Source: an uncultured Sulfurovum sp.
GTDB lineage: Bacteria > Campylobacterota > Campylobacteria > Campylobacterales > Sulfurovaceae
Direction: 5' to 3'
Assembly: GCA_902727895.1 (NCBI GenBank)
Contig: CACVAP010000047.1
Span: 52,213 to 116,212 of the forward strand
Length of the DNA: 64,000 nt
Shown: positions 53,742 through 62,378 of the stretch, one piece after another
Layout: every line of letters starts with the position of its first letter
How positions within the stretch are numbered: position 1 is the stretch's first letter
Notes under the pieces: generated by a model
Databases searched by the model: none
What the model was told of the DNA's origin: nothing
The model's input: only the letters and a program-made list of their open reading frames with translations
Made by a program: the position numbers and the translations under genes

Positions 53742-54515
53742 TTACCCACACTTCCCAGGTGCACATTTCATCCCACCACATTTTCCACTTTTAGGAGTTT
53801 CTCTCATGTCATCCATCATGGCTTGCATTTTGTCTGGATTGGCTACAAAGTTGTAACCTTTGTACATAGTAAACAAGGCATAAAACACTACTAACAAAGC
53901 TGCTGCTTTCATCATACTCCCTCGTAAACTTCCTTTTTGTAAAAACTTAGTTACCGTTCCCAAAAAGAAAAGTGCTGGAATGGTTGCCAAACCAAAAGTA
54001 GCCATAACAATTGCTCCCCACAATGGCGAAGCCGTAGCAGCAGCCATAATAGCAAACGAATAAACCAATCCACAAGGAATGATACCATTTAACATACCCA
54101 ACAAAAAGAACGACCTGTAAGATTTACTCTTTAACAAGCTTCTAAAGCTATTTTGAAACCATGCGTACTTAGAAAAAGAGAACTCAGCCGAATTTAAAAA
54201 TTTAAACTTCCCAAGAAGCGAAAGCCCTGCAAGCAACATCAACAAACCTGTTAGTAAAAAGAGTATCCCTTTAGTAGTAGGCGTAAATGCAATGGCTTGT
54301 CCAAGTAAACCAAACAAAGCCCCTATCATGGAGTAAGTTGCTACGCGTCCAAAGTTATAAGATAAATGCGAAAGGGTTTGTGTTAGATGTGAGCTTGTCT
54401 GGTCAATCTTAGAACTAGAGTAAGCAACCACTATTCCACCACACATACCAATGCAGTGTCCAAAACTTCCTAAAAATGCTGTTGTTAAGATAATGACTAA
54501 ATCTATGTTTTCCAA
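53742..54515 (-). CDS. Sulfite exporter TauE/SafE-like (UreH_2-type) membrane protein with Cys-rich tail
   Basis: A 257-residue protein with about six membrane helices. The metal-binding-like motif GHCIGMCGG (C21, C25) lies in the first helix and a second conserved cysteine site is in GIIPCGLVYS. The C-terminus carries a soluble tail SGKCGGMKCAPGKCG with four cysteines. This set is typical of the UreH-like/TauE-SafE group near cytochrome oxidase copper maturation genes, where copper or another metal is the expected cargo. The start codon is TTG, with AAAGG 6 nt upstream. No oxidase genes are visible in the window. Confidence 0.82.
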   Translation of the reverse strand: MENIDLVIILTTAFLGSFGHCIGMCGGIVVAYSSSKIDQTSSHLTQTLSHLSYNFGRVATYSMIGALFGLLGQAIAFTPTTKGILFLLTGLLMLLAGLSLLGKFKFLNSAEFSFSKYAWFQNSFRSLLKSKSYRSFFLLGMLNGIIPCGLVYSFAIMAAATASPLWGAIVMATFGLATIPALFFLGTVTKFLQKGSLRGSMMKAAALLVVFYALFTMYKGYNFVANPDKMQAMMDDMRETPKSGKCGGMKCAPGKCG

Positions 54516-58282: not shown

Positions 58283-59536
58283 ATGCTTAAGCCTTTACTC
58301 TTTATACTTACCCTTGTTATACTCATAGCCTTAGCACTTAACTTTGACTTTTTTAGTAAAGACATCAGTATTAATCAACCCATTAAAGAATCTACGCAAG
58401 TAAAAGTAGAACCTCTACCAAAAGAAATTATTAGCTCTAGCACAATAAAAGAACCAATTATTATAAACAATGATTTAAGTAAAGAAATTCAACTACTCCT
58501 TAATAAAGCTCAAAAACTACTCGCGCAACATAAGATGGCTGAAGCACTATTAGTCTATGAAGAAATTATTGAAAAGACAAAAAAATCTGATGATATAAAA
58601 GTACTAAAACTCTTTGCAGAAGCTTGCTTTAAAAAAGCAGGTATCCATTATATGTTTCCAAATTATGACATTGAATCTACCATAGAAAGTTATGAGCTTA
58701 TTATTTCAAAATTTATAAATAGCAATAACAAAGAGTTACTCTTAATTTATATGCAGGCTAAAATCCAACAGGCTCCATTTAATTCAAAAGATGAAATACT
58801 CATAGCCTATAACGAAGTAATTGAAAAATTTACAAATGACAAAGAACAAAGATTTGACAAAGAGATAGAAGAACTACTTTTTGCTAAGAGTTTTGCCTTA
58901 ATGGGAGTAGATGACGAAGAAGCCATAGAAGTTCTTGACAGTATCATTGCTAAATATGAGAATAAAACGGAACTACCTGAAACAGTAAGGTTTTCTATTT
59001 TAAATAATATTGAACTCTCTATAATAACAGGTAATGACACAGATAAATATGTTGACTTAGCCACACAATATATGTCTGACTCGCCAGATACAAAACCTCT
59101 TATTGCTATGCTAAATATTATTAAAGATGCACAGAATTTAGATCAAACTGAGGCACTTACAGCATGGAATGATGAATACAATAAATATAATTTCCCAGAC
59201 TGGGATTTTTCAGAACTAAGAAAATGGGTCAACAAAATGGAAACGCCTGAATCTCAAATGAGAATTAGCAAATACTTAGATGCCTTTGAAAAGCAAAAAT
59301 ATACTAATCACTACCAACCTTCTACACGTACTGTAGATGCAAGCCAAAACTATTCTGATAGTTCTACGAGCAATGAAGAAAATATAGAAGGAGAATACCA
59401 AGAAAATCCAACTTATGAACCTGACCCTTATATCAATGATATGCTCAGTACTGAAGCAGAAGTAACCTACCCTAATCCCTACTCAACTACTAGAGAATCT
59501 GTAGAAGTAGATGCTGTCAGTCACACTAACTTTTAA
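58283..59536 (+). CDS. Membrane-anchored TPR-like protein of unknown function
   Basis: A 417-residue protein with one N-terminal membrane helix (LLFILTLVILIALALNFDFF), then a long helical region with TPR-like helix pairs (KAQKLLAQHKMAEALLVYEEIIEK, CFKKAGIHYMFPNYDIESTIESYELII) and a disordered, acidic, Ser/Thr/Tyr-rich tail. It has no catalytic motif. GGGG lies 9 nt before the ATG. It overlaps the 118-residue gene by 11 bp in convergent orientation. A scaffolding role is a reasonable inference. Confidence 0.75.
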   Translation: MLKPLLFILTLVILIALALNFDFFSKDISINQPIKESTQVKVEPLPKEIISSSTIKEPIIINNDLSKEIQLLLNKAQKLLAQHKMAEALLVYEEIIEKTKKSDDIKVLKLFAEACFKKAGIHYMFPNYDIESTIESYELIISKFINSNNKELLLIYMQAKIQQAPFNSKDEILIAYNEVIEKFTNDKEQRFDKEIEELLFAKSFALMGVDDEEAIEVLDSIIAKYENKTELPETVRFSILNNIELSIITGNDTDKYVDLATQYMSDSPDTKPLIAMLNIIKDAQNLDQTEALTAWNDEYNKYNFPDWDFSELRKWVNKMETPESQMRISKYLDAFEKQKYTNHYQPSTRTVDASQNYSDSSTSNEENIEGEYQENPTYEPDPYINDMLSTEAEVTYPNPYSTTRESVEVDAVSHTNF

Positions 59537-59882
59537 GATCAAACACAACCGTATGAGGTTTTTGAAAAACATAAAAATAAAATAGATAAAGAAACAATCC
59601 TACAATATAAAGACCCAATCCTATCATCATCAAGCCCATAGAAAGTATCTTTCTCTTGGCTACAACTCTGTGTTCTGTTACCTCAACAACTTCATAATCA
59701 TTTTGCTCCAACATCAGTTCAAATTTCAAAATTTTTTCTTTATCTGTTAACTTTGCATTGGCAAGTGTCTTTGCATGAAAATCATCAAAAACTTTTTGAT
59801 ACGCCAATTTATCTTTCTTTTCTACCCCAAAATAAACATAAAGTCCTATGGGTAGCATCAGTATCATTAGTACGGTAGTCAT
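59526..59882 (-). CDS. Small two-helix membrane protein downstream of the 12-heme cytochrome
   Basis: A 118-residue protein with membrane helices at about residues 2–18 and 80–106 and a charged soluble loop between them (DKLAYQKVFDDFHAK, LKFELMLEQNDYEVVEVTEHRVVAKRK). It has no cysteines and no heme motif. AAAGGAT lies before the ATG, and the gene begins 9 bp after the cytochrome stop, so it is co-transcribed and likely works with it. Assembly factor or quinone-side subunit are guesses without support. Confidence 0.7.
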   Translation of the reverse strand: MTTVLMILMLPIGLYVYFGVEKKDKLAYQKVFDDFHAKTLANAKLTDKEKILKFELMLEQNDYEVVEVTEHRVVAKRKILSMGLMMIGLGLYIVGLFLYLFYFYVFQKPHTVVFDLKS

Positions 59883-59891
59883 CTAAATCCT

Positions 59892-62255
59892 TTACTTTCT
59901 TCGTCTATAGAAAAACCAAAATACTAATCCAAATAAAACTAAAATAGGAATCCCGACTTGTGTCCAAGCCGAGATTTTTACTGTTTTATTTAAAATATCA
60001 TTATGTTTCTCTTTGTCTATTTCAATGCCTGCCATATTTGCCATATGATTCATGGCTGAAATTGCTAAGTCACCCTTTGGAATGCTTTCATGACAAGACA
60101 AACAAGCCCCTTGACGGTCAAGTGTAGCTCTTTGCTTAGCAGACAAAGGATTCGCTAAAGTCCAATGGTTATCAACCGTTTGAACTTGTGTTCCATTTTC
60201 ATCTACCATGACTGAATAGTCATGCTTTAAGTTTGGAATAGCTGGAATCTGTTCATCTACTTTCTTAGGTAATACTTTACCATCTGCTGTCATAAGATCA
60301 ACAATGGTTGACTTAGTTTGGTCAGCAAAATACTTACCCCCATTTATTCCCATACCCAAGGCTTTTTTAGAAGTATGACAAGACTCACAGGTACGAGACT
60401 TCTTGCTAATAGTATGTGGATTCACTTGTGCCATGGTAATGGTGTTTTGCCCCTCTGCTCCAGCACCTTCTACATTTGGCATCTTGACAATATGGTTTTG
60501 CAGTAAAGCATTACCATCTTTCCCTATAACTGTAATGGTCGTTTGACAACCAGGAATGGTAGGCGAAACACGTCCTTCACCATTAACACTTAATGCAGGG
60601 TCTTCCCAACGTAGATAAGATCTTGTCTCTGTTACTTTACCATCTACTAAAAAATCTTTTAAGGTATCTTCTCCAGAATTTCCATGAATGTCATGTGCAT
60701 GAGAAGCAGCCAAATAATCAGGATTTTGTTTTCCTTCTGAATAGTCTATCTTCACATGACAACCATAACATTGAGGCGCCCACGTTGCATGACAAGTATA
60801 ACACTCTAGTTTATCGGTATGTGCTTCTATCTGATCCATGGCTACCAATGCTTTTTTAGAAAGCTTGTCTTGTTCTTTGAGGTATTTTAGAGGTTTAAGT
60901 TCTATATCTTTTCCTGATGCCAAGTGCATCATTATTTTGTCACCATGTCGAACTACTTTAGTCATGGGGTTTCCACGAGCTGAAAGTAAAAAACCATCTC
61001 CTTTATCTTTAGGGATGGCTCCTTTCTTTAGATACTCAGCTAAAGTGTCCGTTGTTCCACGCCCTTTTCCAGTTTTTGGTTTTAATTCAAACTCATCGGA
61101 ATAACCAAGAGGTAACTCCCAAGGATACTTTTTAGTTGTTCCATGACAATCTTGACACTCAATTTCCACAGCCCCAAGATTTGCTCCTGTCATAAAACCA
61201 TCTCCATGCATATCATTTGAAGTGTGACAATCTTGACATAACATTCCTTTAGAATAATGAATGTCTTCTGTCAGATGTAAATAACGTTTGGTATGTAGTT
61301 TTGGCTGTCCATTTCCATCATGATCAAAAGTACCTTGGTACTCTGTTTCCATTAGTCCTTGATAGGAAACTCCAATACGTTTTCCACGGTTATGACAAGT
61401 GGTACAAGTCTCTACAGGCACACCTGAATATTCTGTACCATGTACATTCACCTTGACCTTACGTGAAGACTGGATTTGATGGGTTAACATATGCCCTGCT
61501 TTATCATGAGGAATCATAGAATCATTCCCTTCATAAAACCCTTCATTTGAATAAGGAATATGGCAAGAAGCACAACCCATTCCTCTAAAGTCTCCACGGC
61601 GTTTTCGACCTTTTCCACCTGTATGACAACGTAAACATTCTTGTCTTAAGTACGTATAAACAGAAAGCAGTGGATCTTTTTCAATCTCTTCTGCTGTTGG
61701 TGCTTCAGGAATTTTCTTAGACTCTTTAGGAAAAGCTTGTGGTTCCATTTTTGAGAGTCGTGCCATGTATTCTTGATAAGTTTTTGTACCAAGTCTAGCA
61801 TGGGTATTGTTAGCATCATAATTTGACTCTGTATGGTTATACCCATCTGCTTTTCCAAACGACCACAAAGCCCCATGAATTTTCCCTGCTTCGGTGTTCA
61901 TTAGTGAGTTCCATTGAGACTTTACTTGCTCAGGATGGCACATACCACAAGTGTTAATGTTTATCCATTGACTCGTAGGACTTGGATAAAACTCTTTAGG
62001 ACCTTTATTTTCTAAAAAATACTTTAGCGTTCCAGAGTGTGAAGCATTTTTATCGTCAGTACTTGGGTTACCACCATGACAAACCACACAGTCATTACCT
62101 TTAGCCCCTGCTGTCTCTGCTACAGCTAAAATCTCTTGCATCATCTTAGAAGAGTGGTCACGAATATGTTCTATGCCATTATGACACTCGATACAGGAGT
62201 TTTTAGAAAAAAGTAAAATAGGAATAATAAATAATAAATAGAGAAGGTTTTTCAT
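59892..62255 (-). CDS. Membrane-anchored 12-heme c-type cytochrome
   Basis: A 787-residue periplasmic multiheme cytochrome. A signal peptide (MKNLLYLLFIIPILLFS) is followed by twelve CxxCH motifs: CIECH, CVVCH, CGMCH, CLRCH, CASCH, CTTCH, CQDCH twice, CYTCH, CYGCH, CESCH and CLSCH. A C-terminal membrane helix (VGIPILVLFGLVFWFFYRRRK) anchors it. A domain of about 90 residues without heme motifs lies between hemes 8 and 9 and another of about 120 between hemes 10 and 11. It would carry electrons between a quinone pool and periplasmic or outer partners, or be an enzyme. Substrate and subfamily are unknown. AAAGGAT lies before the ATG. Confidence 0.88.
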   Translation of the reverse strand: MKNLLYLLFIIPILLFSKNSCIECHNGIEHIRDHSSKMMQEILAVAETAGAKGNDCVVCHGGNPSTDDKNASHSGTLKYFLENKGPKEFYPSPTSQWININTCGMCHPEQVKSQWNSLMNTEAGKIHGALWSFGKADGYNHTESNYDANNTHARLGTKTYQEYMARLSKMEPQAFPKESKKIPEAPTAEEIEKDPLLSVYTYLRQECLRCHTGGKGRKRRGDFRGMGCASCHIPYSNEGFYEGNDSMIPHDKAGHMLTHQIQSSRKVKVNVHGTEYSGVPVETCTTCHNRGKRIGVSYQGLMETEYQGTFDHDGNGQPKLHTKRYLHLTEDIHYSKGMLCQDCHTSNDMHGDGFMTGANLGAVEIECQDCHGTTKKYPWELPLGYSDEFELKPKTGKGRGTTDTLAEYLKKGAIPKDKGDGFLLSARGNPMTKVVRHGDKIMMHLASGKDIELKPLKYLKEQDKLSKKALVAMDQIEAHTDKLECYTCHATWAPQCYGCHVKIDYSEGKQNPDYLAASHAHDIHGNSGEDTLKDFLVDGKVTETRSYLRWEDPALSVNGEGRVSPTIPGCQTTITVIGKDGNALLQNHIVKMPNVEGAGAEGQNTITMAQVNPHTISKKSRTCESCHTSKKALGMGINGGKYFADQTKSTIVDLMTADGKVLPKKVDEQIPAIPNLKHDYSVMVDENGTQVQTVDNHWTLANPLSAKQRATLDRQGACLSCHESIPKGDLAISAMNHMANMAGIEIDKEKHNDILNKTVKISAWTQVGIPILVLFGLVFWFFYRRRK

Positions 62256-62304
62256 GGAGCATCCTTTAGGCGTATTTTACCTAAAGAATGTAAGATTTGT
62301 TTTT

Positions 62305-62378
62305 TTAGTTCTTACGTCCTAAAACAGCAAGTGTAATTCCACCAGCTATGCTAAAATGCTTACTGCTTTATTATTCAT
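62305..62378 (-). pseudogene. Frame-disrupted mini-ORF (about 24 codons, hydrophobic)
   Basis: An ATG at 62378 with AAGGA 8 nt upstream begins MNNKAVSILA and then meets TAG. A single extra base near that stop would continue as IAGGITLAVLGRKN and end at TAA (62305). The two halves together look like a small membrane peptide. It lies between fabD and the 12-heme cytochrome on the same strand. It may be a recent frameshift, a sequencing error or a 10-codon leader peptide. Confidence 0.45.

Follow-up and report, generated by a model that had tools for sequence, protein, structure and literature searches.

The window, that is, the whole stretch of 64,000 nucleotides analysed here from an uncultured Sulfurovum sp., encodes a twelve-heme c-type cytochrome that is an uncharacterised, widespread variant of the ExtM-type dodecaheme cytochrome and that probably works alone, with no obligate gene partner. 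In an alignment with seven ExtM-like paralogs of other Campylobacterota, all 12 hemes of this protein and its sole non-heme cysteine, Cys570, fall in matching columns. On balance, the cytochrome is probably a stand-alone periplasmic wire, anchored in the inner membrane and equipped with a special, possibly catalytic site at heme 10 and Cys570.

The features of the locus are collected in Table 1. The CxxCH motif occurs exactly 12 times in the cytochrome, at residues 21, 56, 103, 207, 228, 284, 340, 367, 485, 496, 623 and 718, and the cysteines total 25; in 2000 shuffles of the same protein the motif appeared 0.03 times on average and twice at the maximum. The C-terminal membrane helix, which is missing from the soluble and ten-heme clades of the family, opens with a conserved SAWxQ motif whose A, W and Q are invariant in the alignment. 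The RRRK that follows the helix would place the positive side inward, which fits an inner-membrane anchor. This layout had been outlined in the initial annotation, and its coordinates and counts, including the length of 787 residues, the 12 motifs, the signal peptide and the C-terminal helix, were all confirmed.

Table 1. Features of the cytochrome locus, in coordinates of the window.
Feature	Position	Strand	Basis or remark
Dodecaheme c-type cytochrome, 787 aa	59892-62255	(-)	ExtM-related, membrane-anchored clade; tree and Campylobacterales orthologs
Signal peptide, residues 1 to about 18	62202-62255	(-)	Hydrophobic segment 4-22, directly ahead of heme 1
Heme 4 motif CLRCH, residues 207-211	61623-61637	(-)	Absent, like heme 10, from reduced Sulfurimonas forms
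His321, candidate distal ligand or site residue of heme 10	61293-61295	(-)	Co-loss in two lineages
Heme 10 motif CYGCH, residues 496-500	60756-60770	(-)	Lost jointly with Cys570
Cys570 in PGCQ, sole non-heme Cys	60546-60548	(-)	Invariant wherever heme 10 is present
C-terminal membrane helix, residues 761-779	59919-59975	(-)	Hydropathy; conserved SAWxQ, then RRRK
118-aa two-helix membrane protein, incidental neighbour	59526-59882	(-)	Adjoining only here and in G009/L013
Mini-ORF, nonfunctional DoxX-family gene remnant, deleted internally with both ends (5' and 3') preserved	62305-62378	(-)	Comparison with L033
Promoter/ribosome-binding block around TTCTTTAGGTAAAATACGCCTAAAGGATG	62261-62292	(-)	Conserved among close relatives

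Initially, the heme arrangement could not be placed among the sulfite, nitrite and tetrathionate-linked enzymes of Campylobacterota, an assessment that missed a distant kinship with ExtM. The best curated family for the cytochrome is NCBIfam NF040943, ExtM, a "selenite/tellurite reduction operon c-type cytochrome" (E=1e-64, 218.5 bits), and the profile covers most of the protein, namely residues 197-635 plus an N-terminal stretch. The equivalog cut-off of this model is 800 bits, which no relative among 41 genomes passed; at 218 bits the cytochrome is therefore not an ExtM equivalog. As judged by sequence comparison, it is a distant relative of Geobacter ExtM across all 12 hemes. ExtM (GSU2935), encoded in the extHIJKLMNOPQS or bc-complex cluster of Geobacter sulfurreducens, has the same number of hemes; a Rieske protein, a b-type cytochrome and ExtI, an outer-membrane porin, are encoded in the same cluster (PMC5877670; PMC2825233). 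In contrast, the window cytochrome exceeds the 599-position ExtM model by about 190 residues and carries a C-terminal membrane helix. Its gene has no ExtN, Rieske, cytochrome b or porin gene adjoining, and the loci of its clade lack recurrent neighbours of this kind.

Other multiheme families were searched in Pfam and NCBIfam, and the cytochrome as a whole fits none of the types that had been named for checking (MccA, octaheme tetrathionate reductase, HAO, NrfA and OmcA/MtrC). NrfA, HAO, octaheme tetrathionate reductase and MccA gave no match at E<=1 in the two databases, nor did OmcA/MtrC in NCBIfam. Pfam matches are confined to generic c3/c7/c554 domains (Cytochrome_C7, c3) and MtrC/F domains, the latter being partial, with residues 204-375 matching PF22113 (domains II/IV). 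The outer-membrane decahemes OmcA/MtrC and MtrF have ten hemes and split barrel domains, and a full-length match between them and the window cytochrome is absent. The NrfH model reached only E=0.26 over 39 residues; NapC/NrfH quinol dehydrogenases carry their membrane anchor at the N-terminus, whereas that of the window cytochrome is C-terminal. A profile search of the PDB returned no related solved structure, and a plasmid search returned a partial match to multiheme-type proteins of Sphingobium/Sphingopyxis and nothing else. In the literature searched, ExtM turned up solely in papers on Geobacter and cable bacteria; no description of the present family and no biochemistry for any of its members were found.

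The family is represented in 61 of the 397 Campylobacterota genomes surveyed (completeness at least 90%), all within one order. Many genomes of the same genus carry full-length homologs, and the named records include Sulfurovum, Sulfurimonas and Campylobacteraceae-type MAGs. As had been anticipated, the cytochrome falls in a separate Campylobacterota clade of the phylogenetic tree. This membrane-anchored clade comprises 36 sequences and that of locus L029 (support 90), and stands beside a soluble 12-heme clade of 10 sequences, a ten-heme clade of 4 and the ExtM-like paralogs with 7 (support 100 for each). Between nusB and mqnC, Sulfurimonas-type loci (L137-L142) contain the cytochrome in 12-, 10- and 7-heme versions of about 800, 754, 678, 610 and 423-447 aa, all of which keep the membrane anchor. 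These versions are a natural heme-loss series at one conserved chromosomal place.

The most noteworthy result is the association between Cys570 and heme 10 within the protein. The cysteine is present in 46 of 46 sequences with heme 10 and in none of the 10 without it, so that joint presence or absence holds in 56 of 56. Both are retained in all seven ExtM-like paralogs, and both are missing from the one ExtN-like protein that was aligned (L144). The tree calls for three losses of the pair, but the alternative of just one loss inside Sulfurimonas could not be rejected (p=0.146), and the number of independent losses is therefore at least two, two to three in total. Such a number of events has modest statistical weight, and the deep conservation of Cys570 and heme 10 is the stronger argument. 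Taken together, the pattern indicates that Cys570 may lie near heme 10 in a special site. In His/Cys-ligated or catalytic multiheme enzymes, such as those resembling TsdA, a cysteine is at or next to a heme iron; for Cys570 and heme 10, the observation is their co-occurrence across the 56 sequences. An AlphaFold2 model of the cytochrome built from 19 homologs had a mean pLDDT of 36.6, too poor to place Cys570 relative to heme 10.

Heme loss also bears on the distal ligands. The 12-heme members have 12 conserved histidines outside the heme motifs, a number equal to that of the hemes. In the ten-heme clade, the loss of hemes 10 and 12 is accompanied by that of exactly His321 and His751. Two reduced Sulfurimonas forms (L140, L141) lack hemes 4 and 10 together with His321 and His697, one or two of these positions being judged by eye in a gapped alignment. 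From these overlapping co-losses, heme 10 would pair with His321, heme 12 with His751 and heme 4 with His697. This pairing is not strict, since the protein at L029 retains all 12 histidines, including His321, despite having lost hemes 4 and 10 and Cys570.

The soluble homologs have 45-48% identity to the window cytochrome and possess all 12 hemes and Cys570, but are devoid of the membrane helix. Their genomes are presumably Sulfurospirillum/Campylobacter-like. In 10 of 10 of them a gene for a thioredoxin-fold, lipoprotein-like protein lies beside the cytochrome, followed in most loci by a second thioredoxin-fold gene. In the anchored-clade genomes tested, the first of these genes was missing, save for a single weak and partial match. 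The thioredoxin-fold partners are a hint of thiol or sulfur chemistry. A two-component system is encoded near the cytochrome in most soluble-clade genomes, often divergently. In addition, a direct repeat, GCACTT-N5-GCACTT, is found upstream in all 10 soluble-clade members and in none of 46 others, with 11 occurrences in all over 313 kb. The repeat, combined with the nearby two-component system, therefore suggests direct control of the soluble clade by the adjacent response regulator, with the repeat as a putative binding site. The loci concerned are L065-L074, an example being L066:7505-9901 with its flanks.

The ExtM-like paralogs of Campylobacterota (585-612 aa, 12 hemes) differ from the window cytochrome in being shorter, in lying apart on a long branch and in having a second cytochrome gene adjoining in every case seen. 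The ExtN-like partners are 399-507 aa long and contain 8-10 hemes; such pairs occur at L079:255-9348 and also at L071, L080-L084 and L144. In the operon annotated as an example (L079), the ExtM/ExtN-like genes are accompanied by those for a cytochrome b, a Rieske protein, an iron-sulfur protein and a PhsA/PsrA-type molybdoenzyme, and this operon possibly encodes an undescribed quinol-linked complex. A further observation concerns NCBIfam NF040968 (FeS_ExtO), which matches multiheme cytochromes with scores and coordinates nearly equal to those of the ExtN model NF040967. The name or seed of NF040968 looks wrong, because ExtO is a small Rieske protein.

From the window sequence, it had been proposed that the cytochrome and the small membrane protein encoded downstream form a membrane-bound electron conduit or an undescribed reductase or dehydrogenase module of two proteins. 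The C-terminal membrane helix of the cytochrome holds, and the small ORF is confirmed: its product has hydrophobic segments at residues 2-20 and 79-97, and the gene starts 9 bp past the cytochrome stop and overlaps, at the 3' ends, a converging gene for a 417-aa protein (58283-59536). The two-protein part does not hold: the cytochrome has no conserved neighbour, and a conserved module is refuted. The same-strand spacing of 9 bp, shared by the window and a single close relative (G009/L013), speaks for a joint conduit; against it, none of the other cytochrome loci examined has the small gene alongside, which is the very result that had been named in advance as refuting the module. Homologs of the 118-aa protein were found in 15 of 60 related genomes and, leaving aside G426, whose contig ends at the gene, they sit away from the cytochrome everywhere but in the window and G009/L013. 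In four genomes (G012, G021, G004, G029) the two genes lie on different contigs, and a two-protein conduit is considered highly improbable. Across 41 loci of the anchored clade, within a range of 4.5 kb, no neighbour family occurs in more than nine, and those that recur are restricted to particular lineages, as with nusB and mqnC in Sulfurimonas. At L114-L119, from the same genus, homologs of the 118-aa protein are located beside a 617-aa protein and a possible TonB-type receptor of roughly 677 aa, and these surroundings possibly represent its real functional context.

On the other side of the cytochrome gene, the broken mini-ORF that had been described about 50 bp upstream is indeed present. 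It consists of 10 codons, MNNKAVSILA*, from 62378, with a Shine-Dalgarno-like AAGGA, while another frame runs through ...GGITLAVLGRKN* to 62305. At the same position, the genome of Sulfurovum HLG_WM_MAG_03 (L033) contains an intact 122-aa DoxX-family gene that starts with MNEKAINVLA and ends with LSGGLALAFLGRRN / SGGLALAFLGRRN. Relative to this gene, the window keeps MNNKAVSILA and AGGITLAVLGRKN, the middle is missing and the frame is changed. The mini-ORF was rejected both as a cytochrome partner and as a small regulatory peptide, being a deletion remnant of a DoxX-family gene with no peptide homologs. The block closest to the cytochrome start shows 91-94% identity upstream of the same gene in two related genomes (G001, G012) and recurs in the aligned upstream regions, which marks it as the gene's own promoter-like region. 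An inverted repeat, CTTTAGG-N9-CCTAAAG, was rejected as a regulatory hairpin; since it overlaps with a -10-like box and relatives have it in imperfect form, it is taken as ordinary promoter region. Elsewhere in the window, the minus strand at 53742-54515 encodes a DsbD_2/CcdA-like membrane protein whose C-terminal tail, KSGKCGGMKCAPGKCG, is rich in cysteine and perhaps binds metal. A second multiheme gene of the same genome (G000:C86:99446-100168) has at least six clustered CxxCH motifs.

In the proposed mechanism, the cytochrome is anchored in the inner membrane with its heme domain in the periplasm, and the quinol/cytochrome pool would supply it with electrons at the membrane or close to it. 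They would then run along a mostly bis-histidine heme chain, which would make the protein a periplasmic electron hub. Heme 10, Cys570 and His321, close to heme 4, may form the special site. A small acceptor in the periplasm would be bound or reduced there, the likeliest candidates being oxyanions of the sulfur or selenium type and sulfur species. This site would be dispensable, and the remaining wire could stay. An indirect link to sulfur chemistry is suggested by the kinship with ExtM, the thioredoxin partners of the sister clade and the PhsA-type enzyme in the L079 operon. It is possible, if less than probable, that the protein is a pure electron-transfer wire in which Cys570 is a structural residue or an axial ligand holding heme 10. 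The agreement between 12 hemes and exactly 12 conserved candidate distal histidines is consistent with such a wire, as are the electron-carrier domains matched by the family (Pfam Cytochrome_C7, c3 and MtrC/F II-IV) and the retention in Sulfurimonas of 7- and 10-heme forms without the heme-10 site. However, an extra invariant cysteine linked in its occurrence to one heme is unexpected for a plain bis-histidine wire, and Cys570 is lost alongside heme 10 in 10 of 10 cases yet retained across the deep ExtM-like split.

A stronger version of the catalytic reading is regarded as rather unlikely. In it, heme 10 and Cys570, perhaps with heme 4 and His321, constitute the active site of an unrecognised class of dodecaheme reductases, common to ExtM-type cytochromes. 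If this were true, ExtM, the soluble thioredoxin-linked clade and the anchored clade would act as enzymes instead of wires, with the reduced Sulfurimonas, ten-heme and ExtN-like forms as natural wires that are catalytically dead. Extracellular electron transfer through an outer-membrane porin-cytochrome route, which may be the role of ExtM in Geobacter, has in its favour the kinship with ExtM, whose gene is clustered with that of ExtI (PMC5877670), and the origin of relatives from vents and sediments. This outer-membrane conduit was nevertheless judged improbable, given that the C-terminal helix with its RRRK suits an inner-membrane anchor, that no MtrB/PioB-type porin was found in the organism's own genome and that no porin-type neighbour recurs in the 41 anchored-clade loci.

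Chemolithotrophic Campylobacterota from vents and sediments commonly carry the family to which this cytochrome, a probable inner-membrane-anchored wire with a special heme-10/Cys570 site, belongs. The heme-losing variants of this family supply ligand assignments and a single residue for mutation. Cys570 makes the question of wire versus enzyme testable for ExtM-type proteins, and this applies to the selenite/tellurite cluster of Geobacter as well.
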